Shown here one piece after another: positions 4,801 to 51,585 of a stretch of DNA of 64,000 nt; the stretch's first letter is position 1; every line of letters begins with the position of its first letter. This DNA is from Antedon bifida (Eukaryota > Echinodermata > Crinoidea > Comatulida > Antedonidae): the NCBI GenBank assembly GCA_963402885.1, contig OY727094.1, positions 11,906,501-11,970,500 of the forward strand. Direction: 5' to 3'. The notes under the pieces were generated by a model. The model was not told the origin of the DNA. It saw only the letters and a program-made list of their open reading frames with translations, and did no database searches. The translations under genes and the position numbers were made by a program.

Positions 4801-6509
4801 TTAGTTTTATTTACTTTGTTGTCATTTACTACTGTTTTCAACAATTGTACATTAGTTTCTTTAGGCGGCTCTTCTATCGGCTTAAAGTTACTATCTTTCC
4901 CTAACAATATCATTTCGTCTTGTATTCTAGCATCATTTTCTATTCTGGCTTGCTCTCTAGTTAGGACGAACATTTCTTTAGCCATTGTTTCCCCACAATT
5001 CTGGTCCAAATCATGACCCAATAACATGTCCCTCTGTAATCCTTCGATTACGGCTACAATCACTTTTCCTGTCACTATCTTACTTTCTATAGCTACCTCA
5101 GCTAAGGGAACTGTAATATCGCCTCCTATACCTCTTAACGTAACCCATTTTCCTGGCAAGTAACATTTGTTAGGCACTAGACTTTCCCTAACAGCTGACT
5201 GGGTACATCCCGAGTCTCTGAGCATAGTTATATCCTGTCCTTCTAATTTTCCTGGTAGTGTACACTTCTCCATTTTATTTTCTACACTATCCATAACTAC
5301 TTGGGGTCTATCTGATTTTATTCCTTCACATCTTAAGCCATCTTTCACATTCGGGCCCTTCTTAGCGTCACTAGTCTTTCCTTTTGCTACCATCTTAGGA
5401 CAATCCCCTATTTTATGTCCCTTCTCCTTGCAATTAAAGCATAGGCCATTAATCCATTCATTTGAAGGTTCTCTCTGTTGGAAATTTCTACCATAGTTAT
5501 GGAATTTGCCTCCCCTTCCGCGATACCTATTGTATCCTTGCTGCCTAGCTCCAGGGTTATTCTGAGTCGTACTATTCTTAGGTTTACTATTTTCTTGGCC
5601 CTTATAATACGTAGGCTTATTTTCAGAATTTACGGCATTCCAATAGCCACGGCCACCTCTATTAGCTATATAATCATCGGCTATCATAGCCATATCATAG
5701 CTCTTATTTACTTGTTTATCTCTAAGATAAAGCCTCAGATCTTCAGGCATTTTATCAAGTGCCTGTTCCATTATAATCATTTCAATAATGCCTGCAGCAT
5801 CATCTTCTTTTACATTAGCACATTTCATCCAACATTTTAAATAATGGGAGAGCTCATTCAGCCATTCCCTGATGGACATATCTTTAACTCTGTTTGAATT
5901 TCTGAATTTAAGTCTGTAGGTCTCTGCGGACACATCATACTTTTCTAAGATTGCCTTCTTTAAGGTATCATAATCTACACATTCTTGTACGGTTAAGGAT
6001 GCATAGGCTGTCCTGGCTTTACCAGACAGTTCAGGTGCTAACCTAGCGGCCCACGTATTCTTATCCCAACCTGTGGCTTCTGCCAAGTGTTCAAATGTTC
6101 TAAAATATATATCAATATCATCTGATTCCTTCAAAGTAGGAACCTTTACCTTCATTTCATCTACTATATTCCTAGCATTACTGTAGCTAGACCTATTTTC
6201 TAATTCCATCATTTTCACTCTTTCTTGTGATTCAATTTTTCTTTGCTCTATATCTGCTTCTAATCTTAATTGGTCTTGTTGGTACTGTAATTCTAACTTT
6301 TTGTTTTCGGCCTCGAACTTCATTCGAAAATATTCGAGCATCATATCTTTAGGCATACCTCCGGGTATTTCGGGCAAATCAATATCCCTAGCCATTTTAT
6401 CATACATTTCATTGACTTGGTCAACCTCTTCTTGGTCAACCATATCTTCCCTAGTATCTTTTTCTGACATAGTCTTATCTATATTTTTACCCGATCTTAA
6501 AGTTGTCAT
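1890..6509 (-). CDS. Gag-Pol polyprotein, integrase before reverse transcriptase
   Basis: One open frame of 1539 residues. Residues about 1-340 are Gag-like, with a coiled, charged N-terminus. A CX2CX4HX4C zinc knuckle lies at about 357-372. The aspartic protease motif near residue 432 is DSG, not the commoner DTG. An HHCC integrase zinc finger (about 680-727) and the DDE core follow, with acidic residues near 753, 811 and 848. Only then comes reverse transcriptase (about 1110-1330, active site YIDD near 1274), followed by RNase H (about 1415-1535) starting at a TDAS motif. The start is the first ATG of the open frame, downstream of the 5' LTR and primer site. Integrase upstream of reverse transcriptase is the copia-like order known from Gmr1-like Ty3/gypsy elements. 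There are no stops or frameshifts. Confidence 0.95.
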   Translation of the reverse strand: MTTLRSGKNIDKTMSEKDTREDMVDQEEVDQVNEMYDKMARDIDLPEIPGGMPKDMMLEYFRMKFEAENKKLELQYQQDQLRLEADIEQRKIESQERVKMMELENRSSYSNARNIVDEMKVKVPTLKESDDIDIYFRTFEHLAEATGWDKNTWAARLAPELSGKARTAYASLTVQECVDYDTLKKAILEKYDVSAETYRLKFRNSNRVKDMSIREWLNELSHYLKCWMKCANVKEDDAAGIIEMIIMEQALDKMPEDLRLYLRDKQVNKSYDMAMIADDYIANRGGRGYWNAVNSENKPTYYKGQENSKPKNSTTQNNPGARQQGYNRYRGRGGKFHNYGRNFQQREPSNEWINGLCFNCKEKGHKIGDCPKMVAKGKTSDAKKGPNVKDGLRCEGIKSDRPQVVMDSVENKMEKCTLPGKLEGQDITMLRDSGCTQSAVRESLVPNKCYLPGKWVTLRGIGGDITVPLAEVAIESKIVTGKVIVAVIEGLQRDMLLGHDLDQNCGETMAKEMFVLTREQARIENDARIQDEMILLGKDSNFKPIEEPPKETNVQLLKTVVNDNKVNKTKCLDDMNGTEMNNLFDENEDIKAKDKTVKRKTYEQQHKLNLTKQELIKLQTNDDSLKGAFDRVVPIEEIGQHRVCFFMRQGILMRNWSSIKDKNNQVEQIVLPTQCRQGVLHLGHNVPFAGHMGVEKTKSRVLNQFYWPGIFKDVVVYCKVCKECQKVDKGKSKRKHTLIPLPIISTPFKRIAIDIVGPLSRTSRNNKYMLTIIDYATRYPDAIPLPNVRAETVARALIEVFTRVGLPEEIVHDQGTNFMSSIMQSICSMLGINQLKTTVYHPQSNGLVERFHGTLKNMIRTLTVKQRKNWDDYIPPFLFAYREVPSKATGHSPFKLLYGREVRGPLSLLKSNWVEDEETSTDVIKYMLDIREKMEELMKDANVNKLEQQEIMSHNYNKNAIDREFVEGDKVLIFLPVGNSKLDSKWQGPFTVTKKVNDVNYEIYIGGRRKEKQILHVNMLKRWYDKVEISKDGYYVVTNVQSIEEVDLNETVHDNELDSEIDIGLSYHQSQTWRDVNISSNLNDTQTKQLTELLKYQQNVFSDVPGRTHLVTHEIKTNGEMPIRHRAYRTPQSLKGKLKEELDSMLAMGIIEPTVSAYAAPIIALKKGQNQIRMVTDFRSLNKTTQFDPYVMPRIDEMLDEVSSAIYITTLDLTKGFYQVPLDPKTKDKSAFITQFGQYCYNVLPFGMQNSSSTFQRLMDKVLQGTEGYAKAYIDDICIYSQTWKDHIFHLNDVLERLSSAGLTAKPLKCKIAYAQVEFLGHKIGNGEIRPMVDKVEAVEKFPRPLSKKQVRSFLGLTGYYRKFVQNYADIAKPLIDLTLKSKSNTVKWNEQCENAFVTLKKRLTDDNVLKAPNFDKMFILQTDASNYGIGAVLSQIDGEGNDYPIVYLSRKLSVHEQRYSVPEKECLSIVWAINKLKYYLYGCEFQVHTDHQALRWMDSMKGANVRLMRWALFLQGYKFKVIYKKGSLNGNADGLSRA

Positions 6510-7039
6510 GCTAATAACAATTTTACTAATGAAATTTGTAAACTTATGTATACAAAATATGTTATAAAAGTATTTGTATTACCTTGATTCCATTCAGATA
6601 TGTAAAAATATGAAATCCACATAAATTTTTAAATGCAATACAATATAAGAAATTAATTTACTTCAGAGTCACAAACAACGTTCCTTTCAAAATACAAAAT
6701 CCAACATGCAATATCCAAAAGCAAAGTACAAATCACAAAATCAATCGTTCCAAGTTCGCTCCGTACAAAAATTTACTTTCGAAATAAAAATAGTTTACAA
6801 AGTCAACTTTGCAAATCTTCTCAAAATTTACTGGGCTTCCTTCTGTTACTTCAGTCTTCTTCTTTCAGATCTCGGTGAATATATATCTCCGATGAATATC
6901 CAGCAGTCTTGAGCTCAACAGTACTTCTTCTTCGTTGTAATATCCAAACAACGGTATAAAAACTGTCAGGAATCCAGATCTTCGTAACCATTTAACTTTT
7001 TGGTTACCGATTTAACAGGCCCGTAGAGTAGGCACTGTC

Positions 7040-7097: not shown

Positions 7098-7501
7098 TGT
7101 AGTGAATATATGGAGTTGGTTCCGAGCGTTCTCAGGCGTATATATATTCACGCGACGTACACTGACACTGAATAATTTCTCATACAAAAAGTATACTGTA
7201 TTCAACTAAAACTTTTATTTCTTGCAACTCGATTAATACATCTTTCTACCAGTCTAGACCTTTCTTCTCTATAATCTATACGTCTATCTACTTTGATCTT
7301 ATTCTCTCTTCTCCACTAATATCTATTACATTCTACTCTTATACTGGACATGCAAATTAGGGGCTTCAGAGGAGGATAACATTTTCCCTCCAAAGTTTCC
7401 CTCCAAAATTTTACGATTTTGATTGGCTAATAAAATAAAGCAGACCTAGTCTAAAGCATCCTTATCTAAACACAGGGAATCAGAACATAAATATTATGAC
7501 A
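7098..7501 (-). repeat. 5' LTR of the Gmr1-like element
   Basis: The 404-bp upstream LTR in element orientation, with TG...CA ends. The GTTGT target duplication follows at 7502-7506. Confidence 0.95.
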
Positions 7502-7506
7502 GTTGT

Positions 7507-10182
7507 CAATTAATCATCGACGCAGACATGTCAATAGAACATTCAGACTGCGCATACGATTTCTACATGGTTACGTTTTGGTCTTAAAAAATGTAACAGT
7601 TGATTCGCAGCGTTTTACAGAGGGCCGCGGTTAGAGACACGGAGTTCAATGAGCGTGTTTGTTTGATTGGCAGCAGTGCTTTAGTATAGGCAAGCGCGTT
7701 GTAAAATCGTTTGATGTCACCGTCAATGCATATCCTTCTATTCTTTAATCCATGGTTTAATTCAACCTAAACCCCATTGACTGGCAGCCAATTTGACTAT
7801 TTTTTGCTTTAAATTACTTTAAAATGACTTACTCAACAAAGAACTGTTTAAGAATTATTTATTAAGGAAGACAATATATCTTTCAGAGAAAATCAGTTTT
7901 GTGTCCCGATAGTCATCATCGGTCGGTGGGTTACGATAGCTGTGTAAAATAATAACACAGTGTTCTCTTAAAAATTAGAATACTATATCCGTCAGACGTC
8001 TTCTAACTTTATATAAAAAATCTTTGGGGGAGGATTACATTTTCTAAAACACGAAATTGTCTCACACATTATACGATATGGATGTCAATAGACAATTCAA
8101 AGAAAATTTAACAAAAATGAGAAAATATTTCAGACGACTTTATTCATTTCATCTTTATATATCGGAAATGGATTGTCATTTAAATGATTCTTACTCTAAT
8201 TAACATTGATTATAATCACGAATGACAGTTCAAAATATGCAATGCATTGTGATATTCATGCAAGTAATGCAGTAAAAAAAAAGAGAATGTCCCGAATAAA
8301 ACCAGATATTAGAGATCATTACGTGTTAGCAGATATTCAATATGCAGATAATCCATCATGATGGTATACTGGAGGTTGTAATGTGTTTAAATATATAAAA
8401 TCCTTATTTTCCATGATAAAAATTAGAAATAAATTAGAAAAGTATATTCTGCCACTTGCGTTTAAAAAAAAGAGGCAATAAACTAACAAACCGCATCAGG
8501 TTTCGTATTATAATCTTATATTTAATTCATTGAGGTACAGTTAAAATTGTTCGATAAAAATATGACGGGTGAGGGCGCACTTTATTATATGGAATATTGT
8601 ATTTGAACATTTTTAAACATATATCTGTAAATATTTTAGTTTATACTTTGGTTTTCTTTATATGTTATGTATTTTATTATATAATTTATTGTAAACTATA
8701 CTTAAATTATTGTAGAAACTGTTAATGTCGTAGGTTTTATAGCTTTGTTATTGTATTTTTCAACTGGCGGTAACGGCATCTCGTAATGTCAGTCACGCTT
8801 CGTACGCATTTGCTGTATACAATAATACGACATGAGGCGACATGGTTATAAAAAAGTCTAATTTTCTCAAGACGCAACATCAAGAAATGTTATTACCAAT
8901 ATACATAGGACCTACGGATGAAATTTTGTTAGGGTAAGTTCTTATACCACGGTGAGGGTGATTTTTGACCAGACTAATATCAGTTGTATAAAAACACAAG
9001 AAACGTTTTATTACATATATGTAGTCATAAATATATATTTATTTAGTCATAATAAATATAATATAGAAAATAGAATATCGCAAATGAATAATCAACAATT
9101 GTAATTAATCATTCAATATATCTGAAGAAAGAACAATGATTAATTTTTAAATGTCGAGCAGCGTTTTTTGTAAGAAATATTTCTTGTTTAATGTAACTTA
9201 AAATATAAAATCAAAAGAGCAATGGATTAGAATGTTACAAACTGTGTAGATCTACTCTCCTTGAATTGTACAATAGAAATGAGTTCTGTATTTTAGCATT
9301 AAGTAGCTGAATGAACTTAATGATCCACACGGTGAATACAGGCATACTGCAATTATACTGATTTTACATGTGTGACAATCATGATTACAATGTTGTTGTG
9401 ATGACTAACCTATCTAGAAGAACCTTGTGAATTCATTTTGAGAAGAGTTTTAACAAACTATAGACAAGATAGATGGAGGTTAAGATACTTCAGTTCAGTA
9501 GAATAAATAATACACCTATAAGGTTGTATCAATGATTATAGGTCTATGCCCCTGGAAATTAAAAATCAAGAACATTTAACTGATACATTCAATCAACTGC
9601 AGGTGGTGCCACCATTCACCTGATATTAAGCACCAAAATGGCAAAATGTATGTAAGCTAAAAAGGAAGAAGAGCAACATTTTAGGTTCAAGTAGTAATTA
9701 GTGGTTCAGTCTATAATACTACACTATATTATTTAGTAGCAACTTCAATAGCAATGCCTCTATTAAAACAAAAACCATCTCCGACGACCCAAATAGTTTG
9801 ATGTAGCCTGCCATACAGTATTGCCTTAAATTTAGTAATCGCTTTTTTAAATTGCCAGTTTGACTGTCCGATGCACTCAGTCACAGGTTGTCTAATTAAT
9901 AAGTAGTTTATTGCACTTGTTTATCAAAAAAGAGAAACAGAAATATTGCTTATTAAATTAAATAAATTCAAAAATCAATATGAAACAACGTTAAATGATT
10001 CAAAACGACAGAAACACATCCAAACGTGTTATATGGCAATCCGCTGAAACGCATTTGAGAAAGGCTGGTTGGAAGCTGGCCGTTTCAGACTGTATATTCC
10101 GTTTGGTAGTTGACTGTATGACTGCAGTACATACATTATGATCGCGATATAAATAAAATTAATTTTATTTATTTATTTAAAA
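7507..10182. other. Long non-coding stretch
   Basis: AT-rich sequence with short homopolymer runs and many stops in all frames. I see no exon, terminal inverted repeat or tandem array that I could defend. Confidence 0.4.
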
Positions 10183-35902: not shown

Positions 35903-38900
35903 ACCCTTTGCAAAAAAGCCGTATACGAACGTATACGATTTACATACGTTTCGTATATGTTTCATATAGGAAGTCCATTTCGTATACGAAACGTATACGT
36001 CAATTCGGAAGTTCCTGCCCGCATAATAAACATATACGAACCGTATACGATCATTTATAAACAATTTCCTAATTATACGATCCGTATACGATCCGTATAC
36101 GATCCGTATACGATACGAGTACGCGTGTATACAAACTGCATCATATTACAAACCGAAAAGGGACTGTCCCTCTTTTTACAAGACGACGATAGCATACGTT
36201 TACGATGGCAGGAGCATCTTGACTTCAATAATTAGTGTACAATTTGTTTGTTTTTTTTTTAGTCGGTATATGTACATTAAATTCCCTATGATGATTTAGT
36301 TCATAGTTTTCGCTAATGAAAAAAATTGGTGCTGTATTTTACAAGACGTTATTTTTCTATCAAGCATAAAAACCCACCCAGACTGTTCCGTCTTGTTTAT
36401 CCCCTCTGCTATTTCTTTACCTTTGGTACGTTCCATTAATAAGTAAATCATACAAAATGTGCTGTTATTAATTTAGAAAGTGCTTTAATTAATATTAATG
36501 TACTTGGAAATAAATAAATAAATATTAAATTGGACCCGCAGTATATTAAATTTAAAACAAGTAAGTAAAATACATAAATTACGATGTAATAAAAATGTAG
36601 AATACATGTGGCTCCCTATAATATATATGGAATGATCCAAATAAATTCGCCCAAAACGTGCCTGTGTTGTGTGTTCTGCATGCATGCATCACATGGATCA
36701 GATTTCATTCATTTTCAATCATCATTGCTGTTGTCCAACAGGATTTTTTTTTGCTACGGGTTTTAACTCGCCATAAAAAAAATAAAAAATGGGATGTAGG
36801 CCTAGTTACAGTAGGCCAAAGTAGATAGTAAATTCGATGACTTCTAGCTAGCTAGGCTATAGGCATATTGTAATTGTATAGATCGAACATGCAGTAACTA
36901 GCTACTGCAGCAGCTCTAGTAAACTAAGAGTAACTAGGCCTGGGAAAAATACGCCAAGGAAAAGAGTCTGTGGTACACTCATTGTGAAAATAAGCTTGCT
37001 AGCTTTCCCCCATATATTAGATTTGGTTATATTGGTTGTATTATTATAATAACCTACTCTAGCTAGTAGTAAATCAACAACGGTGAAATAAAAATTACAT
37101 CTCCCTGGTAAAAAGGTACCCCACGCCCCCATTTTTATGCCTCCATCATTGACAGGCCAAGCGGTATTTAATTATATTTTTATTTATTTAATTCGTAAAT
37201 TTAAAAAAAATCGTTAATATAAATATGTGAACCTTTGTAACTTTTTGTTGTATATGCGCGGGCGCGAGATACTATTTAATAAGATAGGCTTTATTCATAT
37301 CATATGTGTTGGAGTGGTAAACAACTATGAGCCTAGTTGCGAGGATACCGCCTCGTAACTACGTATTGACGTATAGACGTTTTACTATAATATTGAATAT
37401 GTGTTACTTAAAAAAAGGAAGTAATACATTGTGTACAATATTAGTAGCTAATAGTTTTGTTGTGCCCCCTCTGTACACACGGCTGCGGGCTGCTGGATAT
37501 TTGTTTATCATTTTAATGAATGTAGTACGAGTCTAACGCCAAATAAAGATATAGAACACATTTTGAGAATTCAAAGTTTTGATCTTTTTCAAGAATCTGA
37601 TAAACATGACTCATCTTTTTACATAATATACAGCATCAGCATGTACAATCTAATTTAATTGTCACACAATTGAATTAACAAAGGACAAGGATTTCAAATA
37701 AACTGTTACAAATAAACAATTATGAATGAAATAGTTGGGGTATTGTCGGGTCCATGGGAAATCAACAATGTTTAGTAGACTTATTTAATTTGTTATTTAC
37801 AGTTGAGGGTGGTTATTTTTTAAAGACATGTTTTATGATTTCTTAATCACCAAGCAGAAATACCGCTGAGATAAATGAAAGCAATTCAATCTGTTCGCTT
37901 AACCGGGAAAAAATTGAAATTCGATATAATTGTATTTACTATAACCACTAATTTTGTTTTTTAATTTTTTTCTACGGAAGTGATCAACTTATTCAAAATC
38001 CGATTGTATTCATTGTTAGATAATTATTATTATTATTATATAATGTTAATGTACATATCAACACATCCCACTTCTGTTTTGGATCATGGTTTTCCTCTTC
38101 GGCATTATTTGCCAAATTATTGTTACTCCATCTCCATGCTGTACTACAACACATGTCGCGGAATAATATCGCTTAACATAAACGATGTAATTTGACCACC
38201 CAAAGCTCGCACGTGGTGTGACGAATTGAGAAGATTGAACGACGTACCCGATGATATGCATGATTGGCCACCAGAGAACCGAGTCGACCACGAGTTGCAA
38301 TTGTAGGCAACCGAGCGACGCTCGGTCGTCGTCGGCGGCTGAACTTACTGACCTCTGCCATATTTTATAAAGGAAAACTGCAAACAACATCGTGAAAATG
38401 GCCCCTTGTCTTGTCCTTTCTAAGCCTACCTAGTAGTAGTATACCTGTTTAGCCTGTTTGACTTGCGAAAAACGTTGTTTGAATTTTATCGGTAGCCTAG
38501 GCTATCTAATAAATAGAAATAAATATGGTCTTATGTCCTAGCTCCTAATACTACTAGGCTATACTAATAATACTGTACTAGACTAGTGGCTGGTGCTAGC
38601 TAGGCCAGAGAGCCAGCCTACGTACGTACGTATTTGTTGTAATGACAATTTAAATGTTTTATTTAGCTCTATTCTACTCATTACTACTATTATAATTTAT
38701 AAAATGGCCTAGTTTGTTCGTATATGATTCGTATACGTCCCGTATACGATATTCTTATCATGAATAAACAACGTATACGTTACGTATGCTAAACGTATAC
38801 GACGCCAACTCTTTGTGGAGCAACAGAGTGGAAATAATGTAAACAGTGAAATCGTATACGATCCGTATACGTCGTATACGTTTTCAGCGTATACGGATCG

Positions 38901-38921
38901 TATACGGCTTTTTTGCAAAGG
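35903..38921. mobile_element. 3.0-kb DNA element with CGTATACG arrays at both ends
   Basis: The left end reads CCCTTTGCAAAAAAGCCGTA; the complement of the right end is the same and continues TACGA before diverging. About 200 bp at each end (35918-36135 and 38715-38910) is packed with the palindrome CGTATACG, probable transposase-binding sites. The interior has no convincing gene. A block near its left end (about 36285-36640) is homologous to the 5' region of the neighbouring 12.4-kb transposon. Target duplication not resolved. Confidence 0.75.
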
Positions 38922-38945
38922 GTTGGAATGAGTGGGTTTAGAGTG
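38922..38945. repeat. Left remnant of the 84-bp minisatellite
   Basis: TTGGAATGAGTGGGTTTAGA followed by GTG is the same as part of the repeat unit at 51316-51585. The 12.4-kb element therefore split this minisatellite. Confidence 0.8.
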
Positions 38946-38978
38946 CATGGGAAACTGAGATACAGTCCGTTGTGGAAA
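38946..38978 (+). repeat. Left terminal inverted repeat (33 bp)
   Basis: Perfect inverse complement of 51284-51316. A small hairpin, GGCGCTATGCGCC, follows at about 38986-38998. Confidence 0.95.
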
Positions 38979-40025
38979 TAATTATGGCGCTATGCGCCTA
39001 AAATTTCGTGCACCCTGTGGTTTAATGTGTTTACACACACAGTAGGGATTCAATTAACAAGGTCATGCATCTGTACTGTAACTAACTTGAACTCAATTTT
39101 GGTAAATTATTCAGTCATGATTTTTACTTTAAATGCCTTATGATGATTTAGTTCATTAAAATAATGTTTGAATGAAGAAAATCGATGCCGTATTAATCAA
39201 ATTATGAATTGTAGAACGTTTTTTTCTATCTAGCATTAAAAACACGGGCTGTTCTGTCTTAGTTGACTACCCCCTGCTCTTGTTTTCTTTGTTTACTTTA
39301 TTACTCTTGGTTTGGTATGTTCCATAAGTGAGTGAATAACACAACATATTCTGTTATTTTTTAAAAATTGTTTCAGATGGTAATCTAAAACAAGTTGTAT
39401 AGTGGGTGTTTTAATATTAAATTGTAATGCTACATACTTCGGTAGAAGTGGTAAAAACGATATATTTATAATGTAATAAAAATGTAGTTTACTTGAATCT
39501 CCCTATTATTTAAATGGAGCGATCCAATGAGATCGGTTGAAAGGTCAATTATCAACATGTGGTGGAATTGCATCGCGATTCGCGGCAAACGGAACTACCG
39601 GCAAAAAACAGCATTGTATTGTATTGTGTTTTTTTTTTAGTTATCAAAAAGGATCGTGTTTAAATTTTGCTTTTGTAAATTAGGCCTAGGCCTAGGCTAT
39701 TACTTGTTTTGTGTATCTGTGGGAATTTTAATTCGTCTGCATATACGTCTGGTGCCAAGAGAATTAACATTATGATTGTTTAGGAAACAGTTGTCTATGC
39801 TTCTTTCTGCTAAGAATGTATTATTAATATTAAAGGTAAGTACTTTTATTAATATTGTATATTCCATTGTATTTAGGCTAGGCCTGAACTGTAAGAATCT
39901 TAAGCCCAGGCCTACTTATCAATTACTTATAATTATAACAATCGTTTATTATGAACATTGCAAGCTATTTTACATTCTTCAGTGTAATTGTAGTTGAAGC
40001 TGGTAGCGGGGCGATTCGGCTCTGA
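38979..40025 (+). promoter_or_regulatory. Probable 5' region and untranslated exon of the transposase unit
   Basis: No coding exon. A strong donor (AAAG then GTAAGTAC at about 39836) and a good acceptor at about 41298, ahead of the first ORF, suggest a 5' untranslated exon and an intron of about 1.46 kb. Part of this region (about 39132-39530) is related to 36285-36640 in the neighbouring element. The transcription start is not located. Confidence 0.4.
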
Positions 40026-40484
40026 GACGATTCGGCCCACTTATATTTATCGGCTTTGATGCATTTTATAAGCATAAATAAGCCCTTTTCCCAAAAAAAA
40101 CTTTCTTTTCAGAGAGACTAGTATGGGGTAGTAATACTAGGAATAATGATGCAATAGAAAATTAAAAAATATAGGGCCACCGAAAATGATCATTTTGTAT
40201 AGCCACGCGAACGATGTAAACAAATTAATTATGCCCCATGTTGGCCGTTTGGCGAATTATCGAATAATAATTGCATATAAAAATATTATTTTTTTGTTAT
40301 TTATTTTATATAATATATCAACATTGGCAATATCAATAAAATATGTTACTAAATGGTAGTTTAAACACCTTTAAAATCTAATAAATACCAAAAAAAACCC
40401 ATTGGTTTGGACTACTGTAAAGTGAGACGTTTCGACCCACAAAGTGGAATGAAACGTTTCCCACCAAAAGTGGGCCGAATCGTC
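40026..40484. repeat. 459-bp inverted-repeat insert inside the transposon
   Basis: GACGATTCGGCCCACTT at 40026-40042 is perfectly inverted at 40468-40484. Variant copies lie just outside on the left (GGGGCGATTCGGC, 40009-40021) and inside on the right (AGACGTTTCGACCCAC). It is either a nested MITE or a regulatory inverted repeat, inside the presumed 5' intron. Confidence 0.6.
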
Positions 40485-40805
40485 CCGGATTCTTTAAGCT
40501 AGGCCTACTTTAGTAGTGTAGGCCACAGGTTGTTTTGTCTAAGGTCTGTTTATTTAAATTTAAAAATGTCTATAATAATTTTATTGAAACTTTCTGTTTA
40601 TGTATACCAGCACAATTTATGTTAAAGTACATTAAACATAAGACAAATCCCATTTTTGAGAATTTTACATTTCAATAGACTGTACATACTACTACTTAGT
40701 ACTATAGGCTAGTATTTGATAGATTTCAAAAATATGATATTGATAAGCACCTCTACTTTGTCTTCAATTTTTTAAATAAAGTACTTACTGGATAGCACTA
40801 ATTAT

Positions 40806-41240
40806 TTCAATTGGATAGCTCCCTATTTCAAATGGATAGCACCCTATTTCAAATGGATAGCTCCCCATTTCAAATGAGTAGCACCTTATTTCAAATGGGT
40901 AGCGCCTTATTTCTAATGGATAGCGCCTTATTTCTAATGGATAGCACCTTATTTCTAATGGATAGCACCTTATTTCTAATGGATAGCACCCTATTTCAAA
41001 TGGGTAGCACCTTATTTCAAATGGGTAGCACCTTATTTCTAATGGATAGCACCCTATTTCAAATGGGTAGCACCTTATTTCTAATGGATAGCACCTTATT
41101 TCTAATGGATAGCACCCTATTTCTAATGGGTAGCACCTTATTTCTAATGGATAGCACCTTATTTCTAATGGATAGCACCCTATTTCTAATGGATAGCACC
41201 TTATTTCTAATGGATAGCACCCTATTTCAATATGATAGTG
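40806..41240. repeat. 21-bp tandem array (about 20 copies)
   Basis: Units of the form AATGGATAGCACCTTATTTCT vary mainly at CTT/CCT and CTAAT/CAAAT. Because 21 is a multiple of three and the unit lacks stops, both strands stay open for about 145-152 codons. These are not considered genes. The array sits in the presumed 5' intron about 180 bp before the first ORF of the transposon. Confidence 0.95.
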
Positions 41241-41417
41241 CAAAATAAAAAACCAATATAAATCACTGATTGCATTTTACTTTTGATTCTATTTTTAGAT
41301 ACAATGATTGTGACGAGGATCTCGAAATACCAACTTGCAAGATCTTAATTCGACTGTACGGAAATTTGTATCAATAATCAAGCAATTACTCATTCATTTT
41401 CACGAATTTCATTAATC

Positions 41418-43451
41418 ATGGCTTTGAATCATTTTTTAAACTATAAGAACTCTTGTGCCATTGATTCATTTTTGGAATTGTCCTACTTCTGTTTTTTTGC
41501 GAAATTAATTCAAAATAATGCACAGCAAAGCGAGTTTATGAATATAGTGTATGCAGCATGCATTCAGAGACAACATGCCGCAACATATTCAGTAAATAAT
41601 ATGAGAGAGATCAGAGACCCTGCCTGGAATTGGCTTGTGAATAAAGGAAGAAGTTTTTATCCAAAGGGAAACATTGATACTTCGTTTGAAGAAATTCTCG
41701 ACTATATTACGGTACCAAATGATGAACTGTTTTCAGTAACCTTAAAAAGTAATTGTATCTGCGGTTCAAATCATCTGCGGTCGATGTGCCCTATATACCT
41801 AGACAAAGATAGTTGTGTTAGCAATGACCTATGCCTTCAAAAAACAGTCAATCATTTTCTAAAGAATATAAGAGTGAAAACATGCCAAGAAAACAAAAGA
41901 GATAACAGTGTAGTCTTCCCACACTTTCTGATTATTGTTGCCCCTGTTGTTCCTGAATCTGATAGTCAAGAGACAGGTGTGCTCAAAGGTTTAACCATAA
42001 AAAAAACAATGAAATTAGGTACCGACTCAGAATACAGCTTCATTGCTGCGGTTCAGCATCGCAGAAATCATTTCACTATCGCATTGCGATACCTTGATCA
42101 CTTTGTCCATATTGATGATCAGAGCTTACAAATTCCACGAGTAGGAAAACTTGATCAAAGTATTTACACTACTAGTCCAGATGATGGTTTTTTTATTTTC
42201 ATATTTGAAAAGCAAACAAACAAATTGTTCATGCCGAGAGAAATAGACACAGCTGCTCATCTCTATGAAGGCGACAAAGTTGAAGACTATGATGCCGCAA
42301 GAGAAGTAAACACAATTGATCATGAAGTCAAGAAAGTTGAAGAAGAGCTTAATTCCGCAAGAGATATAGATACAAGTACTCGTGAAGACAAGAACGTTGC
42401 AGAAGAGTCTAATGCAGCAAAAGAAATAGACACCAGTGATCATTTCTACGAAGGAAACAAAGTAAAGAAGCCTGATGTCCAAAGAGAAATAGATCCAAGT
42501 ACTCATGAAGTTGACAAAGTAGAAGAAAAGTATAATGCCGCAAGTGAATTAGATAAAAGTGCACAAAACATTGCCAATACAGGAGAAGATAATGTTACCT
42601 TAGTTGCTGGTTGCAAAATATGTATGTTTGGAGAGTCTCCATTTATAAAGGCAAAAGAAATTCAATCTTTGGTGAAGCTTAATAATTACTGTACAACCTT
42701 TAAAGTATTGGGAAATGCCAGATGTTTAAATATGTCGAAAGAGATTTATGTTACCAGTGAGAAATTTATATCTCTTAAATTATTTATCCTGCTTTCTATT
42801 ACATCATCAGTAACAACTGTTCGAGATAATTCAGAAATCCAAGCATTTAGATCAAGAATGCTTCAGCTCTTAGAAGCAAAATATGAAAGTCTTCCTGTTA
42901 AATGTGAAACCATTAACCAACGTCCATTCATTAGGATTGATGATTTCTTAACCAACTTCAACTTTCCAAAAAAAAAGAGCTTTGTGAAATTGGAACAAAA
43001 AATGTCTGATTTTGACCTAAAACCTGAAAATGAAATCTTACGGAATAAGTTCCATAAACCGTCACATATTTCATTGTCGGCAGCTGTGCTGTACTTAGCA
43101 AGCAAGAAACATTTGAAAACAGATAATAATAGCCGTGAACTGTTACATAACCTACTAAACATGATGGAAATAACAGCATTAACTGACTACACCACTGATA
43201 CTATAGATGAAAGTAAAGACGTAGAGGTATCGTGTTCTGGACCTGGAAGACCAACTGTGGCAAGTGACAAGTTATGCAGGGAAGGGAAGTACAACAGAAC
43301 CTTATCAAAACGGGTATCTTTACTGAGGGAGTCTAGGAAAAGCCAAGTTGCAGAAATACACAAAGGAGGAAAGAGAGCATTCATTGAGAGTTTAAAGTAT
43401 GACATTAATAAGAAGCAGAGGAAGACTAAATTAGAGGATGGAAGTTGGTAA
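41418..43451 (+). CDS. Ubiquitin-peptidase-like cysteine protease of the transposon
   Basis: 677 residues. A catalytic-cysteine box NSCAIDSFLEL (Cys13) opens the protein. A CxC...C zinc-type cluster lies at residues 113-133. A histidine box HRRNHFTIALRYLDHFVHID (His218, Asp233/234) closes the domain. This order is that of C19/C98 ubiquitin or SUMO peptidases. Residues about 273-390 are five acidic repeats built on EID(T/P)S...H...KVEE. A poorly known region follows (400-590), then an AT-hook-like GPGRPT and a basic tail. The start ATG follows a clear acceptor at 41298. The frame ends 14 nt inside the next gene. Likely role, inferred only: removing ubiquitin-like marks from host or transposition proteins. 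Confidence 0.85.
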   Translation: MALNHFLNYKNSCAIDSFLELSYFCFFAKLIQNNAQQSEFMNIVYAACIQRQHAATYSVNNMREIRDPAWNWLVNKGRSFYPKGNIDTSFEEILDYITVPNDELFSVTLKSNCICGSNHLRSMCPIYLDKDSCVSNDLCLQKTVNHFLKNIRVKTCQENKRDNSVVFPHFLIIVAPVVPESDSQETGVLKGLTIKKTMKLGTDSEYSFIAAVQHRRNHFTIALRYLDHFVHIDDQSLQIPRVGKLDQSIYTTSPDDGFFIFIFEKQTNKLFMPREIDTAAHLYEGDKVEDYDAAREVNTIDHEVKKVEEELNSARDIDTSTREDKNVAEESNAAKEIDTSDHFYEGNKVKKPDVQREIDPSTHEVDKVEEKYNAASELDKSAQNIANTGEDNVTLVAGCKICMFGESPFIKAKEIQSLVKLNNYCTTFKVLGNARCLNMSKEIYVTSEKFISLKLFILLSITSSVTTVRDNSEIQAFRSRMLQLLEAKYESLPVKCETINQRPFIRIDDFLTNFNFPKKKSFVKLEQKMSDFDLKPENEILRNKFHKPSHISLSAAVLYLASKKHLKTDNNSRELLHNLLNMMEITALTDYTTDTIDESKDVEVSCSGPGRPTVASDKLCREGKYNRTLSKRVSLLRESRKSQVAEIHKGGKRAFIESLKYDINKKQRKTKLEDGSW

Positions 43452-45963
43452 CCTTACAAGCCATGACCTTGTAGAGGTTCTAAATGGTGTGCCGTCAAAG
43501 CGTGGTCGAAATTCATTTTTGGATGACATATCTATTGAAAGGGCTGCAAAACTAACAAAACTTAACAGCTGTGAGGTTATTGATATTGTTGACAAGAACA
43601 ATGGCTTTGCAATATTTAGTGAATTGCGAAGCAAAATACCACAAGTATTTCCTTCAAGATACAGTATTGCACGTTCAATGAAATTGTTAGAAGGTGAATT
43701 TAGGGCGATTCTTCGACCCAGGAGGACATCAACAGGGTACAGGATTGATGTCCTACGTTTATTACATTGTTTGCGTTATTTATACTTTTATATCAAGGAT
43801 GAAGAGCTTTGGAGGTTATGGGGTGATGGCCGAAACATTGGAAACAATCAAAGTGTATGTTTCACAATTTCATGTGTGAACAATGAACAAGCATTAAATG
43901 GGATCAAATACCACGGGACAGAAGATATTTGGCCAATTGCAATCTTTTATGGGAGTGACAAACGTTACAATTTAGAAGCTAATATTGGTGGACAATGTGG
44001 TAGTCCAGGATGGATGAATGAGTGGATAGAATCTGTTCAGACACAAACTCAGGCCAAGGTGATTCTTTCGGGCGACTCCATGTTCCTTGATGCTATGCTT
44101 GGAAAAAGTGGTGAATTTGGGCCTTTGTGCAAGGATGGATACAGCATATACTTTGATGAAGATATAGCCACAAAAGGGAATATTGATCCATCAACTGGAT
44201 TTCGATCGGGTCTAAATAAGCCCTTCAACAGAATTTTCCAAAATTCACTTGTTCCTGCAATACCCATCCAACATATCGTATACTGTATCGACCATGCCGC
44301 AACAAGAATAGTTGAAAAACTTGTCCAAATGCGCCTAAAGTCTATCGCCAAAATTGGAATAGATATCAAACCAGAAGCTGTGGGCAAACAAATTATGAGT
44401 AATAAACTTGAATGTTTTAGGCGCAATATGCTAGAAAGAAAAGTCAAGAAGGCTGAACGCATGGACATTAATCGAGACGGATCATTAAAAGATCAAATAA
44501 AACTAAACAAAACTGAAGCACATGCACTTCTACAATCACCATCGAAGTTTATAACCAAGTACAGATCATTGTTGGAAGGTGTAGCATATAAAACAAATGA
44601 GGAGATGACTTTCAAATTGGATGAATTTACGATGAAAAGAATGAAACGGACAAGTCCGGAAATAACAGAGTTTGACTTGGAAACAGAGATGTGGGTCAGT
44701 TTGGAGGAAACAATTTCTATTCTCAGAAAATCGGATCCAGAACCTGTACTTAAAGAAGGATCATCTGTAAATTCTAAAGATCCAAATGATTATCACTGGG
44801 GAATCAATGCCACAGCTGAAGAAAATCTAAAATGTCACCTTGACATGTTCCATAAGTTATATGTGATTAGGTATGGATCAAAAGAAGTAACACCATACAT
44901 GCTCAAATTAGTGGATGCTACAAGAGTACTTTTCCAATCATTGCCTGTGAAATCATTAATGCGATTTTCGACTGAAGGTGGTGAGCATAGAAATGGGGTC
45001 GATGGCACATATTATATGACACATACTCAAAGAGGTGGGGCTTCCAAATCAACAGACCCAACCTATTCCATTCTCTTTTGGATGTATAGGAAGTTGAGGT
45101 CAAGACTGTCTGCATACACATCAGATGAGGATTTACAAAAGAAAACAGCGGGTGAAGATTTTATACAATGGTCAAGAAGGGAGTGGGCAGCAACCAAATT
45201 GCAATCAGTTTACCGCGCTTATCGTTACAGGGCTAAATTGGACAGTAAGTCAAATATTATTGGGAAACACTCCAGCTCAGCAAAAGTATATAATATTATT
45301 CTTGTTGGACACATACCTGGTAAAATAAAAAACTTACATGGCAATGTTGAAGACCTCACGACTAAGTTGAATGCAGCAGGATCAAGAGTGGTAAAGAGCG
45401 ACAAAATACCAAATTCAATGATTAAATTTCACGCTCTAGTTGTAACAACTTTGAATTCAGTCAGATCGCAGAGACCTCCTAGTGCAGTGGTTGAAGCATG
45501 CCGAAGAGGCTGGCCCATTGTTGATTACAGTTTTGTAACAGCTTACCTGTCAGACACTAATGCTTCTATTAAAGATTACACACTTAATACAGATGAATTA
45601 AAACGAAATGATGTAATGGCCAATCATAAAATTGTCAGTCCAGAGGAATTTTTCTTTAGTAAGCCTGGAAAATTAAACCCCATGACAGAAGTGAAGAATA
45701 AAGAACGTATGTTAAAAGAAAGACCAATAAATGTAGCTGTAGCAAAAGAGAAAGAAAAGAAAAAACAACCTTCAGGTTACCTAAAGTACTATAACAAGTT
45801 CAGTGCTGAAGCATCAAAAGCTGTTAAATATATTCCAGACTATAAAGAACGACTACGAGCAAAGCATAAACTGGTCAAAGATATGTGGAGTAAGTTGTCA
45901 GATAAACAACGGCTAGAGTGGGAACACAAACAATCTGGTGACAAAGAAAACAACTGTAAATAA
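43438..45963 (+). CDS. DDE-type transposase-like protein with IQ, BRCT and HMG regions
   Basis: 841 residues. Candidate catalytic acids are D130 (LWGDGRNIG), D213 (LSGDSMFLD) and E513 or E516 (FSTEGGEHRNG, followed by THTQRGG). A large helical insertion between the second and third contains YCIDHAATRIVEKL. This resembles RNase H-fold transposases with an insertion domain. An IQ-type motif (LQSVYRAYRYR) lies at about 588-598. A BRCT-like fold (VGHIPGKIKNLHG to GWPIVDYSFVTAYL) spans about 614-712, and an HMG-box-like tail (SGYLKYYNKF to WSKLSDKQRLEW) about 770-835. The ATG overlaps the previous stop; an in-frame stop at 43432 shows the frame cannot open earlier. BRCT and HMG would suit DNA-break and DNA-bending roles, by inference. 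Confidence 0.85.
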   Translation: MEVGNLTSHDLVEVLNGVPSKRGRNSFLDDISIERAAKLTKLNSCEVIDIVDKNNGFAIFSELRSKIPQVFPSRYSIARSMKLLEGEFRAILRPRRTSTGYRIDVLRLLHCLRYLYFYIKDEELWRLWGDGRNIGNNQSVCFTISCVNNEQALNGIKYHGTEDIWPIAIFYGSDKRYNLEANIGGQCGSPGWMNEWIESVQTQTQAKVILSGDSMFLDAMLGKSGEFGPLCKDGYSIYFDEDIATKGNIDPSTGFRSGLNKPFNRIFQNSLVPAIPIQHIVYCIDHAATRIVEKLVQMRLKSIAKIGIDIKPEAVGKQIMSNKLECFRRNMLERKVKKAERMDINRDGSLKDQIKLNKTEAHALLQSPSKFITKYRSLLEGVAYKTNEEMTFKLDEFTMKRMKRTSPEITEFDLETEMWVSLEETISILRKSDPEPVLKEGSSVNSKDPNDYHWGINATAEENLKCHLDMFHKLYVIRYGSKEVTPYMLKLVDATRVLFQSLPVKSLMRFSTEGGEHRNGVDGTYYMTHTQRGGASKSTDPTYSILFWMYRKLRSRLSAYTSDEDLQKKTAGEDFIQWSRREWAATKLQSVYRAYRYRAKLDSKSNIIGKHSSSAKVYNIILVGHIPGKIKNLHGNVEDLTTKLNAAGSRVVKSDKIPNSMIKFHALVVTTLNSVRSQRPPSAVVEACRRGWPIVDYSFVTAYLSDTNASIKDYTLNTDELKRNDVMANHKIVSPEEFFFSKPGKLNPMTEVKNKERMLKERPINVAVAKEKEKKKQPSGYLKYYNKFSAEASKAVKYIPDYKERLRAKHKLVKDMWSKLSDKQRLEWEHKQSGDKENNCK

Positions 45964-47124
45964 ATTATACAAATTGTTGTAATTGATGAGCAGAAACATT
46001 TTTTAATAATTTGAATTACAGAATCATTTTGAATTTCTAGTGTAATGCTGTGTTTATATTGTTCTCATGATACAAAACATTGTTCAGATCTTTTAAAATA
46101 TTTCCTTTTATTTTATAAAGTTACTCAAATTCATATTTTAAGTACAGAATTATTTTGAATTTCTAGTGTAATGCTATGTGTATGTGTATGTGTGTGTGTT
46201 CAGATCTGTTAACTGTACTGTATTTCCCATTATTTATAAATTTAATCAAATTCATATTTGAAAGAATTATTTTGAGTTACTACAGTATTATAGTGTAGAG
46301 TTTTTACGTTTATGAACATACTGTACTAATGATATATTATTGATAAGCATAGTGTACATTGAGTATAATATTTTTACTTAATCATTTTACAGATCAACTT
46401 AAATTTCTTATTTTTTTATTGTGTATTTATGGTTTCTAAAAGCCTATTTAGTGATGAATGTGACTACTCTACAGTACTGCTGGTATAGACATCTTAAAAT
46501 AATAGATTAAGGCATATACAGTACACTAGAACTGTTTTAATAAAATTGAGATCATGAATAATGTACGGATACTTTAATACTACTGTTGTATTTTACTACA
46601 AATAAACAACTTGATGTGCATTCAGCCCTTGTATCCAGTAGCACATTAGTTACATACATGCTCTGCTGTAATAAATTATTACTGTAAATATTTCATACCG
46701 TAGTTGATAAACTATTTTTATTTTATTGTACTTTTCAAACCCTGAACAGTGTAACCATCATCAATGGGCAAACATTTTTTGCAAAATTTATTACATTAAC
46801 TGATTTACTGAAACCAAAATAGGCTTTATTGTTTATAACTAAACAAATAAGAGTATTATTGGGAAGTGACACTAATTTAAGCCGTGTTCATAAATAAAAT
46901 GCAGGGCTTGATGATGTGCTTGCTTCTTATCAGCAAGAGAATGATGAACAATTTCCATTCCTTTATATTTATATAAAACAAGTTTGAAACAGGATTTATA
47001 CAAATTCAGCCTACTGTGTTCTGGAAACTAAACAGTCCCTTAAATTCTACATTTTGAATGATGCTCCTTAGTCCGGTGAATATCTGTATGTCAATTGTCA
47101 TGATGGTTATTCTTTATCTTATTA
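45964..47124. repeat. 3' intergenic region with a diverged tandem duplication
   Basis: Units of about 125 bp starting near 46018 and 46143, with a partial third from about 46265, share GAATTATTTTGAATTTCTAG. The rest is AT-rich with no gene. This is the tail side of both convergent genes in the transposon. Confidence 0.6.
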
Positions 47125-47187
47125 TTACACGCCCAATCATAAATCTCTAGTTATAATATAACTAGAGATTTATGATTGGGCGTGTAA
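47125..47187. terminator. 31-bp-arm perfect palindrome between convergent genes
   Basis: Left arm 47125-47155 starts TTACACGCCCAATCATAAAT. The right arm 47157-47187 is its exact complement around a single central base (47156). In RNA from either strand it would form a long hairpin between the 3' ends of two converging genes. It could act in transcript ending, or it could be a tiny palindromic insertion. Function is inference. Confidence 0.6.
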
Positions 47188-47594
47188 AATGTTTAGTGAT
47201 AAAAATCGTCCTAAACATCTGTCACCTGTCAAGAATCATCCATCTTTCAAACATACTAGGAGATATGGATGGCTAAATCAATCATCAACAACAAAACTGT
47301 TTAAAGTCTTCCAGTTATTTGCTGGTGTTTTTTTTATTAATACAATAACATTTGTTATAACAATCCATAACAATGTGCATTAAACAGTTCTAAAATGTTT
47401 ATTTAAAAAAAAGTTTTAAAAAAAATTAATAGTGCAAATAAAAATACTTGACATGACTCAATTTTTAATACAAATTGTTTACAGGCACAATTTATTTTTT
47501 TTGGATAGTTAATATGAAACTAAACATGGTTATGCTTTAAGAGTTTAAACGTAATGAGTCCGAGCATGAAGCTATAGTTATAGGGTCTGAGAAT

Positions 47595-50500
47595 TCAGCA
47601 CAATTTATATAAACTGGCATTTGCAATTTGTCTGTATGTGTCATTATTGTATGGTTGAGTAGATGTGGACTTGCAGACGATACACTCGATCACTGATCCC
47701 TTCAAACAGAATGATAATGATCGTATAAATACAAATATATCCGCACTTTTTCTCACATCCCAAAAAGGCCCAAGAAAGTCATCGAGATAATGGAAGTTTT
47801 GTTCTATAAGAAAAGAGTTCTTAAAATTGTTGTCTTTAGTTAAGCCAAATAATGCGAACACTCTTTCATCTACTAAAATCTGGAAGCTTGTTCTCAAATA
47901 TTTTGACTTCATGATTGCATTTAACTTATTGTACATGAAATGACCCAGCCTGTATTTATGGACATCAGATAAATAGTGTGCATTATGCACAGCCACAGAC
48001 GCAACAGCCTCAAAAGCCTGGAACCTCCATTCCTCACAGACTTTCTGCAAGGAACAACTTAAACGTTGAGTGGTAGTTATTAATTTAGCAGTGGGACAGT
48101 TTAAGTTACACAAATGTTCTAAGTTCCACACATCTTTCGTTGCAATGCATACACCACACTTTGCTTGTGGCATTCCCTCTGACCAGATTATTTCTTGGAT
48201 AACCACAATTAACCCACATGAAAATGTGCACACATCACCCACAGACACAAAGCCATGCTTGCCAGGAGCTACTGATAATAGAAGAGCGTTTTCTTCTCCA
48301 GCTTCCTTTTCTGATGTTGCATTACTTGGCTAAAAAAAAGTAGATACAATATTGTGCTTCATTAATTCAACATAATAAAAAAAAACAATGTTAACCTTGG
48401 GGTAGACTTCACAAAAGAACAATGTCTGTCAATCCTAAGTGTTCATTACATATTTTGAAATCGCATTCACAATAAAGTCAAATATATTTTATGATAGTAC
48501 AGTACATACCATTTTGTTGTTTGTTGAAAGCCTTTTAAATTCCACGTCCTGGTTGCCTCGTTGATTTTTTTTGACAGTATTCCCATCAGATGTTTTAGAA
48601 GTCTATAACAAAATATATAGTATAATTCAACTATTTATCAGGGTTTTCATAATTTACAAAATATTTTAACTTTTGTTGTTGCAAATTGGTGCACACAAGT
48701 TGGCTATAGTAACCAATTCTTTGTATTGGCTTGTTATTGTATAGGTGCTACTGACAGTATACATGATGATACTACTGCAAACTAAACCTAGCAAAAAAGT
48801 AAACATAATAATTGTATACCTTTCGTCTTGAGGGTTTTGGAACTTCTATACTAGGTTGAACAAAGACTTGGTACTTTAGTGAAGCATTTCCACTGTCTTC
48901 TAGCTTTGCAACAATGACATTATTCATGGGATCAACTTCCAATACATGGGCGGTTGATTGTCTTCCATTAAGCCAAACATTAAAGCCCCCTTCCCTACGT
49001 TTTTTAGATCTAATTTAAGATCACAAACTATATTTAATGTAAAAATAATACTATATGGTCCTATTGCGATAACTCTTTTCGTCTTTAAAAGGTTTAAAAT
49101 GTGAAAAATAAGTCGATTCTAATAATTATAGCGGCCCGCTATAAATCCCAAAATGCATTGCGCGCGGATTGATATTTTTGTTTTTCACCTGTAATTCGCC
49201 CACTTTTCGATCGATCGTGAGGCCAAAACAAATGGAAGACTCCTAACTTTTCAGCGAAAATACCGGGTTTTCCCCAATTTGTATCAACGGAGTCTGGCAA
49301 AAATAGAAAGACAATTAATGCAGCAACTATACAACGTCAGGCTAGGTATATAGCTAGCGTACGATGTTCGTACGTTACCGATGTTTACCAGCTAGGCCTA
49401 CAAAACTAAGCCTAGCTAGGCTAGGCCTAAGACCGTCCACTAGAGGTCGATCGCCGCGAGCTACTTAGGTAGTGCATTGTTTCTCACTTTTTATCATAAT
49501 TTACCATAAAACGTACATTTAAGACAAGGAATGACATGGTTTAATGTTTTTAAAGTGATATATATGTATTATTTTCCAAAAAACGTCCAAAATTGCAGGG
49601 AAGGGGTCTTTAACTTTATCCTCGGACACAAACTTCAGCTTCTTGACACTAGGCACTTTGGTCAAAGACCTCTTTCTTTTTCTAATCTAGAAAATGAAAA
49701 TTATTCCAATTCACATTAAGTTACAGTATTTATCAAAAAACAATGGTCGTCAACACCCTAGACACTGCACTACTAAGATGATGACTTTAATTTGAAAACA
49801 TTGTAATACATCTCCATTTTGTCCATGAAACTATACAACATTGATTGCCTACAGCAGAGATATTCCCCTACAGTATGAAAGTACTGTAATTACTTTATTT
49901 ATGTATTTAATTGCATTTTTTAAATTATTCATTAAGTTCAAAAGTTTAAATACTAAAAAGGAAATCGTATTGTATTTACTATTGATTACACTCAAATTTA
50001 GTGGAAATAAACAGGACACATTTGAAACTTCCTGCCAACTTCATACGAATAAACAAATCAAAACTAAATTGATTGAAATCCTTTGTTTATTAAAAAATAC
50101 AATAGAAATAAATTATGATTAGCTGGTATGGTATCGTATTTGTGTGGACTAATTTAAATGCAAGTTAATTTTGGAGTACTCTAGACCTATCCTGCTGTTT
50201 ATTAACTTATTCATTTACATTGACAGCCAACTGGGAAAATATATTATATACTTGAATAAAATTAATTTCCTAGGCCCTATTATGTTATTAAAAGTAAGGA
50301 AATATTTATTTGGCTGCATCTGCTTAAATCATGGAACAGTGGCCTAGGCTAGGGCCTTATCTAAATGCCTAATCAAGAATAAATATCTCTAGGCCTACTA
50401 CTAGGCTAGTAACTTTGCTAGCTAGGCCAGTAAGCTTAGCCTGTCGGTTTAAAGTATAGCCTACTATCGGCTATAATATATATTAATAATAAACATGTTG

Positions 50501-50813
50501 GCGGCCGAATCTAGAGGCCTAGCCTAGGGAGGGAATAGAGATAGGATAGAGAGGCCTACTCTCTAAAGGCTAGGCTAGCCTGGTCCTATTTATTAACTTA
50601 AGTATTATTGGCTTGTGGATTCCTTCTTACCTTGGTTTGTTCACGAATTTCTGATAGCGAAACTGTCTTTTCCCATCTAGCACTCCATCCATCGAATTTA
50701 ACATTGTATTGTGGATTGAAATCATCAATATCTTGAACACAGGATACTACATGTGCTGATGCCCAATAACCTTCATCGTCAAGTGCCTCACAATTATCGC
50801 CCACCGAAAACAT
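47595..50813 (-). CDS. Spliced transposon gene with Tudor-knot-like N-terminus
   Basis: Five exons fit in phase: 50631-50813, a 17-nt microexon 49670-49686, 48820-49009, 48510-48602 and 47595-48329, totalling about 405 residues. The first exon (61 residues) reads MFSVGDNCEALDDEGYWASA then VKFDGWSARWEKTV, the pattern of Tudor-knot/chromo-barrel modules that bind modified chromatin proteins. A basic stretch follows. The last exon (244 residues) has a Cys-rich part (AKCGVCIATKDVWNLEHLC) and helices I do not recognise. The second exon is the weak point: a longer version (49585-49686) is open but breaks phase. The gene starts about 470 bp inside the right terminal repeat. Confidence 0.7.
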
Positions 50814-51283
50814 TTTAAATGTTTAGATTTACTGCACTGTACTTGCTTTGGGTTTTTTCCTTTGTTTTAGTGCTGCAAATGTAACGATTGTCAACAACAA
50901 ACTAGAAAGAAGACTTAGCTTTTTGTAAAAACCGCGGCGTTAGGCAGCTAGCGTCATGCATGGGTGGGTCCGAGTATGAATCATCATTCAGAATACAGAG
51001 TGTGGTAGGGGTGCGAACAAAACATTCAACAGCCACAATAACTTGTACAAAATGCAAAGCTGAAATCGTAACTCTGTAAACACTGCATCGTTTTTTTCCA
51101 TTCAAAAACTAAAATTATTAGTTTCTTATTAGGAACATGTTTGTAAGGATGAATTTGTGTCCTAATATCTTTTTATATAAAATATATGATCATAGTCATA
51201 GTTATTTTATCTAACATATTACATAACATTATATAATCAATTAACTTAATGACTTAAACACATGTAATTTCCTTAATCCTTTT

Positions 51284-51316
51284 TTTCCACAACGGACTGT
51301 ATCTCAGTTTCCCATG
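51284..51316 (-). repeat. Right terminal inverted repeat (33 bp)
   Basis: Perfect complement of 38946-38978; marks the right end of the 12.37-kb transposon. Confidence 0.95.
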
Positions 51317-51585
51317 TGTATAATGTAATGTGTAATACTTGTTGATTACTGCTTCTATTATTATAGTGTCTTTAGTGTTTGGAATGAGTTGGTTTGGAGT
51401 GTATAATGTAATGTGTAATACTTGTTGATTACTGACTTCTATTATTATAGTGTCTTTAGTGTTTGGAATGAGTGGGTTTAGAGTGTATAATGTAATGTGT
51501 AATACTTGTTGATTACTGACTTCTATTATTATAGTGTCTTTAGTGTTTGGAAGTGGGTTTAGAGTGTATAATGTAATGTGTAATT
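51316..51585. repeat. Minisatellite, period about 84 bp
   Basis: GTGTATAATGTAATGTGTAA starts copies at 51316, 51399 and 51483, and a partial copy at 51564, with spacings of 83, 84 and 81 bp. The array is the target into which the 12.37-kb transposon inserted. Confidence 0.9.

Follow-up and report, generated by a model that had tools for sequence, protein, structure and literature searches.

What kind of element is the 12.4-kb unit that interrupts a minisatellite in the genome of the crinoid Antedon bifida, and does it belong to any named group of transposons? The window analyzed here is a stretch of 64,000 nucleotides from contig OY727094.1 of assembly GCA_963402885.1 (C7:11906501-11970500 in the searched genome of 315.6 Mb and 27 contigs), and the element in question spans positions 38946 to 51316 of it. 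An initial annotation, made from the letters alone, had described a three-gene DNA transposon of unrecognized type. We consider it highly probable (about 0.8) that the element is one inserted copy of a large class II cut-and-paste transposon of autonomous type, which would represent an unnamed lineage working in a RAG-like or CACTA-like manner.

Ends and insertion site of the element

The element termini are CATGGGAAA...TTTCCCATG. The left terminal inverted repeat (CATGGGAAACTGAGATACAGTCCGTTGTGGAAA, 38946..38978, plus strand) and the right one (51284..51316, minus strand) are identical over 33/33 bp in inverted orientation, as had been described for the 12.4-kb unit, and arms extended to 36 bp are 97% complementary. 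With up to 3 mismatches allowed, a 21-bp piece of the terminus occurred at two sites in the window, both of them the element's own ends, and the mean in 100 shuffles was 0.00 occurrences. Two class II hallmarks are present: the terminal inverted repeats and, as described below, other copies with the same ends.

The right flank is a minisatellite with an 84-bp unit (3.2 copies, 51316-51584), and its part at 51317..51584 supplied the empty-site sequence. Only 23 bp of this minisatellite are retained on the left (38923..38945, an exact match to the unit at 51463), followed outward by the end of an unrelated repeat, here called repeat R (about 35904-38922), a point on which the initial annotation needs correction. 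Because the intact units preserve the target sequence, the insertion can be read without a second genome: the uninterrupted unit is GAG-TG-TATAATG, and the occupied site is GAG-TG-[CATG...CATG]-TG-TATAATG. Since the intact units have a single TG and the element is flanked by TG on each side (38944..38945 and 51317..51318), the duplication at this insertion is TG; the element itself accounts for 12,371 bp of added sequence and the duplication for another 2 bp. The proposal that the element split the minisatellite and moved as a unit is supported by this empty site and strengthened by the relatives in the same genome.

ORF2 as the probable transposase

ORF2 (43438..45963, plus strand), the probable transposase, is open over 842 codons and is the longest frame of the element, compared with a maximum of 160 codons in 200 first-order Markov simulations of the element. 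Against its closest other copy, on C10, ORF2 showed a dN of 0.030 and a dS of 0.076 over 368 ungapped codons (26 non-synonymous and 16 synonymous changes; Fisher p 0.006), and therefore it was under coding constraint.

From alignments, we propose three candidate catalytic residues on the plus strand: D131 in a GDGR motif (43825..43827), D214 in GDSMFLD (44074..44076), and E517 in GGEH, upstream of HTQRGG (44983..44985). D214 and E517 are invariant across the window's ORF2 and two relatives from outside the genome, P0001 and P0002; E517 is also kept in the genomic fragment L015 and, as judged by eye, in two others, L013 and L016. D131 was found in four of the five sequences compared (window, P0002, L010 and L016), and P0001 begins after this position. 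The spacing between D214 and E517 is 303 residues. An RNase H fold may hold these residues.

The part of ORF2 downstream of E517 appears to be modular. An IQ-like motif (45184..45237, plus strand) corresponds to a Pfam match of the window's ORF2 at 0.0039, which, like a PLDc_3 match at 0.017, is below the cut-off. A BRCT-like region with approximate borders (45283..45549, plus strand) was placed through the homologous part of relatives, which matched BRCT_2 at 1.1e-5 (L015) and 0.0038 (L013), both below the Pfam cut-off; in L013, a competing weak match, RE_AlwI at 0.0013, ranks above it. Against PDB, this region as a single sequence returned only unrelated matches at E 0.59 or more, and its profile returned none. 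Near the C-terminus lies an HMG-box-like region (45760..45945, plus strand, approximate borders). A two-sequence profile of the C-terminus gave three PDB matches at E ≤10, two of them HMG proteins (0.0022 and 0.021) and the third nucleolar transcription factor 1 (1.0), itself an HMG-box protein. The HMG reading relies on this profile because Pfam gave no HMG match in the window's C-terminal piece or in P0002; a competing weak Pfam match of the tail is DUF3027 (0.031).

Copies and relatives of the element

The terminus search that the initial annotation had suggested showed that the ends do occur elsewhere in this genome, with and without genes. Allowing up to 3 mismatches, the 33-bp end was found at 5 places, 2 of which are the window's own, and a reversed-pattern control gave 0. 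On C15, the two ends are 455 bp apart and enclose no genes, just subterminal sequence; this is a non-autonomous copy. Copies with ends and no genes had been named in advance as counting against novelty. One such copy now exists, and it does not decide the matter because it is ordinary for an autonomous/non-autonomous pair.

A genome search with the left 755 bp gave at least 46 match rows from the best 40 of 59 candidates. Most were weak (64-69% over parts of positions 149-582). All 11 retrieved loci with such a weak match lie in repeat R, and the remaining weak matches presumably do so too. The stronger matches were the window itself, C15 (82%), C1 (78%) and C11 (76%). The right 617 bp gave at least 10 match rows, 2 of them the window's own ends.

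The ORF2 protein search of the genome returned 19 match rows, namely its own full-length row and 18 partial rows, which we grouped into 11 other loci; stops were present in 11 of the 18. Seven of these 11 loci fall within about 3 Mb of C8 (20.18-23.19 Mb of a 35.4-Mb contig), perhaps an insertion-tolerant region. The closest copy, on C10 near 17.008 Mb, is broken and keeps its right end, with 91-92% identity in the two longest coding stretches and 86% in a shorter one; the left end of this decayed copy was not found in the next 4 kb. Outside the genome, P0001 is 43% identical over 71% of ORF2, and P0002 is 32% identical over 97%. No further protein relatives were found with single-sequence, 3-row or 10-row alignment queries, in searches that scored the best 7993 candidates by shared words. 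A scan of viral contigs gave 39 pattern stretches, none of them a relative. The element thus belongs to a family in its own genome.

The accessory genes ORF1 and gene 3

ORF1 (41418..43451, plus strand; 677 aa from the first ATG) has an N-terminal region that looks like a USP/UCH cysteine protease, with 60-bp repeats downstream of it at 42292-42560. This likeness comes through a relative. The window's own ORF1 had no Pfam match, and the ORF1-like frame at L016:2007-2969 matched UCH_1 at 2.8e-4, below the cut-off, beside a competing weak match to DUF5352 (0.0018). SC..D and HF residues line up between the two proteins, and a two-sequence profile of the protease region had no PDB match. Counted from the first ATG of ORF2, ORF1 and ORF2 overlap by 14 nt. 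The start of P0002 resembles the ORF1 tail (9/18 residues, E 0.03 in that one comparison), which hints weakly that a single product can comprise both ORF1 and ORF2. To join the two frames, a programmed frameshift and a very short intron were considered; the C10 copy does not settle this, and we propose no particular joining change.

Gene 3 (50813-47595, minus strand) is spliced and convergent with ORF2. Its exon 1 (50631..50813) is chromatin-reader-like, with Pfam matches to MSL3 chromo-like (1.8e-5) and Agenet (4.3e-4), both below the cut-off; by sequence, it had only unrelated PDB matches at E 0.59 or more. The exon 2 region (49500..49686, approximate downstream border) has an acceptor, and a clear donor was not found. 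Exon 3 (48820..49009), exon 4 (48510..48602) and exon 5 (47595..48329; 244 aa, no Pfam match) join in phase, and GT-AG sites are present at exon 1 and at exons 3-5. A stretch similar to exon 3 adjoins an ORF2 relative in L060. The three genes had been announced as protease-like, DDE/BRCT/HMG-bearing and chromatin-reader-like. The protease-like and reader-like genes hold up, as does a transposase candidate with several domains; most of the domain names come by way of relatives, and the DDE assignment is our interpretation of the conserved acidic residues.

Genome-wide, we found three other relatives of exon 5, of which one adjoins an ORF2 relative and two do not. The latter two are tandem open frames on C16 near 15.096 and 15.101 Mb (L058:1486-2247 and L059:1477-2244), which share the gene-3 C-terminal domain at 37-40% identity and have no Pfam match. 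Compared with each other, they show a dN of 0.41 and a dS of 0.82. These frames may be host genes or domesticated ones. Upstream of the gene-3-like frame of L059, and on its strand, there is a long repetitive open frame.

Do the three genes recur together?

Two C8 loci have ORF2-like frames preceded by a protease-like one (29-31% identity over about 90 aa, with E values of 0.001 and 0.004); element ends were not found at the C8 relatives. One of these loci also has, upstream of its protease-like frame, a piece with an internal stop that resembles exon 1 (34% over 41 aa, E 0.003). Near 23.79 Mb of C10, stretches resembling gene-3 exons 3 and 5 come after an ORF2 relative and share its strand. 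Exon 3 is matched there at 42% over 48 aa (E 8.7e-7, three loci having been searched with X placed at stops in the query). This partial evidence suggests that the gene set recurs in the genome, with order and strand varying. In L016, positions 7173-7703 hold a GIY-YIG-like stretch (Pfam E 0.056) before the ORF2-like part, with a 728-bp repeat occurring twice around it; it looks like a Penelope-type insertion.

Comparison with named transposon groups

Harbinger transposases have their D and E closely spaced, and Kolobok elements duplicate TTAA. Both Kolobok and the PHIS group (Harbinger/ISL2EU/Spy) resemble the element in being class II elements of animals. The element differs from Kolobok in duplicating TG at its one informative insertion and from Harbinger in the 303-residue spacing of ORF2, and no transposase of either group was matched in Pfam. 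PHIS duplications are 0, 2 or 3 bp, sizes that include the 2 bp of our one informative insertion; hAT duplications, at 8 bp or 5-7 bp in some lineages, do not match it (PMC12730594).

RAG-like elements (ProtoRAG, RAGL) and Transib share with the element a layout in which the transposase gene faces a convergent gene with a chromatin-reader-type domain, as do RAG1L and RAG2L (PMC7204232). RAGL ends begin with CAC and are accompanied by 5-bp duplications (PMC7204232), whereas the element ends begin with CAT and duplicated 2 bp at one informative insertion. Gene 3 shows an MSL3/Agenet-like exon instead of the kelch-PHD architecture of RAG2, and no RAG match was obtained in Pfam or PDB sequence searches. 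Because the CAC start and the 5-bp duplications are absent, we read the RAG parallel as one of design only, not of membership.

In its ends and in the one duplication read, the element fits one known group, CMCT (CACTA/EnSpm-Mirage-Chapaev-Transib, with Plavaka, ESTA and Lanisha). Most CMCT members have CA..TG ends and their duplications are 2-5 bp (PMC12730594). The CATG..CATG ends take the CA..TG form, the 2 bp of the single insertion fall inside the CMCT range, and ORF2 has a long stretch ahead of its last acidic candidate. That the lineage is a distant member of CMCT is hence quite conceivable, with the odds somewhat against it. In CMCT transposases, the interval from the second D to the E contains C(2)C and H(3-4)H motifs (PMC12730594), but none of three proteins (ORF2, P0001 and P0002) has a CxxC between D214 and E517, and H(3-4)H, present at different places in two of the three, is not conserved. 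EnSpm ends begin with CAC (PMC12730594) and the element ends with CAT. The Pfam families for CACTA (PF02992), Mirage (PF06869) and Chapaev (PF06918) (PMC3985635) had no match in ORF2, P0001, P0002 or the scanned genome fragments. Because neither C(2)C nor H(3-4)H is found as a conserved feature, we do not file the element under CMCT, although on this comparison it probably works like a CMCT element. We think it rather unlikely that it falls in another superfamily already named in Repbase or Dfam, with a transposase that Pfam fails to recognize. The comparison does rest on Pfam, Repbase has 24 superfamilies, and PHIS can give 2-bp duplications (PMC12730594); yet no Pfam transposase match was obtained, and no title or abstract found in the open-access PMC literature describes this combination of features. 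As far as Pfam, PDB, the protein search and open-access papers go, then, the element matches no transposon family compared, and to that extent the earlier statement that it fits no superfamily stands.

Evidence against the transposon reading and alternatives to it

Several observations weigh against an autonomous transposon with three genes of its own. No transposase family of Pfam was matched by ORF2, by P0001 or P0002, or by the scanned genome fragments, and a PDB sequence search with ORF2 had no match. AlphaFold models of ORF2, both built from three-sequence alignments, were poor (mean pLDDT 40.1 for the whole protein and 45.7 for core 85-560). Foldseek with the core model gave nothing significant (best E 0.26), a result that we do not use as evidence given the poor model. 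The RNase H fold is therefore putative. Similarly, the D131/D214/E517 triad is a proposal, because D175 and E294 are conserved as well and the D131 position is missing from L017, a decayed fragment. In the window, ORF1 and ORF2 occupy different frames, whereas P0002 seems to read an ORF1-like tail into ORF2; this copy may therefore not make the full product. The TG duplication was seen at one of the two copies having both ends: the C15 copy, the sole other one found, shows no clear target duplication, so the 2-bp size is taken from a single insertion. The C15 flanks either count against this size or reflect the age of that copy. As to the gene set, a duplicated block of about 17 kb is common to the two C8 loci, which for that reason count once; gene 3 is on the same strand as ORF2 in the C10 relative rather than convergent; and for two of the three other exon-5 relatives, the retrieved loci gave no match to ORF1 or ORF2.

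These two exon-5 relatives, the open tandem pair on C16, would also fit a reading of gene 3 and ORF1 as host genes trapped between two ends and not transposon genes. We regard this as improbable: ORF1-like parts are again found with ORF2-like parts at the two C8 loci (duplicates of each other in part), and C10 has gene-3-like exons next to an ORF2 relative. Less probable still is that ORF2 is itself cargo rather than a DDE transposase and that the ends are mobilized in trans. Such cargo would be in line with structure models from which no RNase H fold emerged and with Pfam matches of ORF2 that are all weak, sub-threshold and of non-transposase type, such as IQ and PLDc_3. Against it, ORF2 is the largest protein of the unit and has relatives outside the genome, and its remnants occur together with a matching end at a second locus, on C10.

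A possible mechanism and its implications

Under the preferred reading of an autonomous cut-and-paste transposon, ORF2 would be the transposase that recognizes the 33-bp ends. With D131/D214/E517 as catalytic residues of an RNase H-like core, into which roughly 300 residues are inserted, it would cut these ends and join them to the target with a 2-bp stagger, giving the TG duplication. RAG-type recombinases leave DNA bending to a host HMGB protein; here, the HMG-like module of ORF2 may bend DNA itself, and the BRCT-like module may contact repair or phospho-signalling proteins. ORF1 could act as a ubiquitin/SUMO-type protease, and gene 3 could play the part that RAG2 has for RAG1, tethering the complex to chromatin or timing its action there. 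Together, the HMG-like module, the BRCT-like module and the reader gene would make up a self-equipped complex for DNA bending, repair contacts and chromatin reading. We infer these accessory roles from domain matches that range from weak to moderate.

More tentatively, the element may stand for an old, unnamed animal transposon lineage of superfamily rank, with CATG ends, 2-bp duplications, a transposase with its own HMG-type bender and BRCT, a deubiquitinase-like protease and a reader gene. It would then be an independent invention of the RAG1/RAG2-style pairing, with the C16 frames as a possible domesticated pair; we hold this extended version to be doubtful. A new lineage would mean one more branch of eukaryotic DNA transposons and a second natural case of a transposase paired with a chromatin-reader gene, so that a role of this pairing in steering integration or excision could be put to the test outside RAG. 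This copy offers perfect ends, long open frames and an exact empty-site context. The open C16 genes allow asking whether the gene-3 domain was captured from the host or given to it.

Other features of the element and its surroundings

Within the element, a 21-bp tandem repeat of about 21 copies (40789..41228) lies between the left end and ORF1 and is open in one frame per strand. A perfect 31-bp inverted repeat with a 1-nt gap (47125-47187) lies between the convergent ORF2 and gene 3.

Repeat R, which ends directly before the 23-bp minisatellite remnant, is an inverted-repeat element with CCCTTTGCAAAAAAGCCGTATACG ends and CGTATACG subterminal repeats, and was present in 11 other retrieved loci. 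It was considered as a relative of the element, its inner part being about 65% like element positions 162-582, and was treated as a separate element because its ends differ; it may hold an old related insertion.

By our reading, gypsy-like and LINE-like frames are present elsewhere in the window; together with the GT-AG introns of gene 3, they point to an animal genome. A 1562-codon gypsy-like retrotransposon frame (1890-6578, minus strand) has integrase-like sequence preceding reverse-transcriptase-like sequence, the order of Gmr1-type elements.

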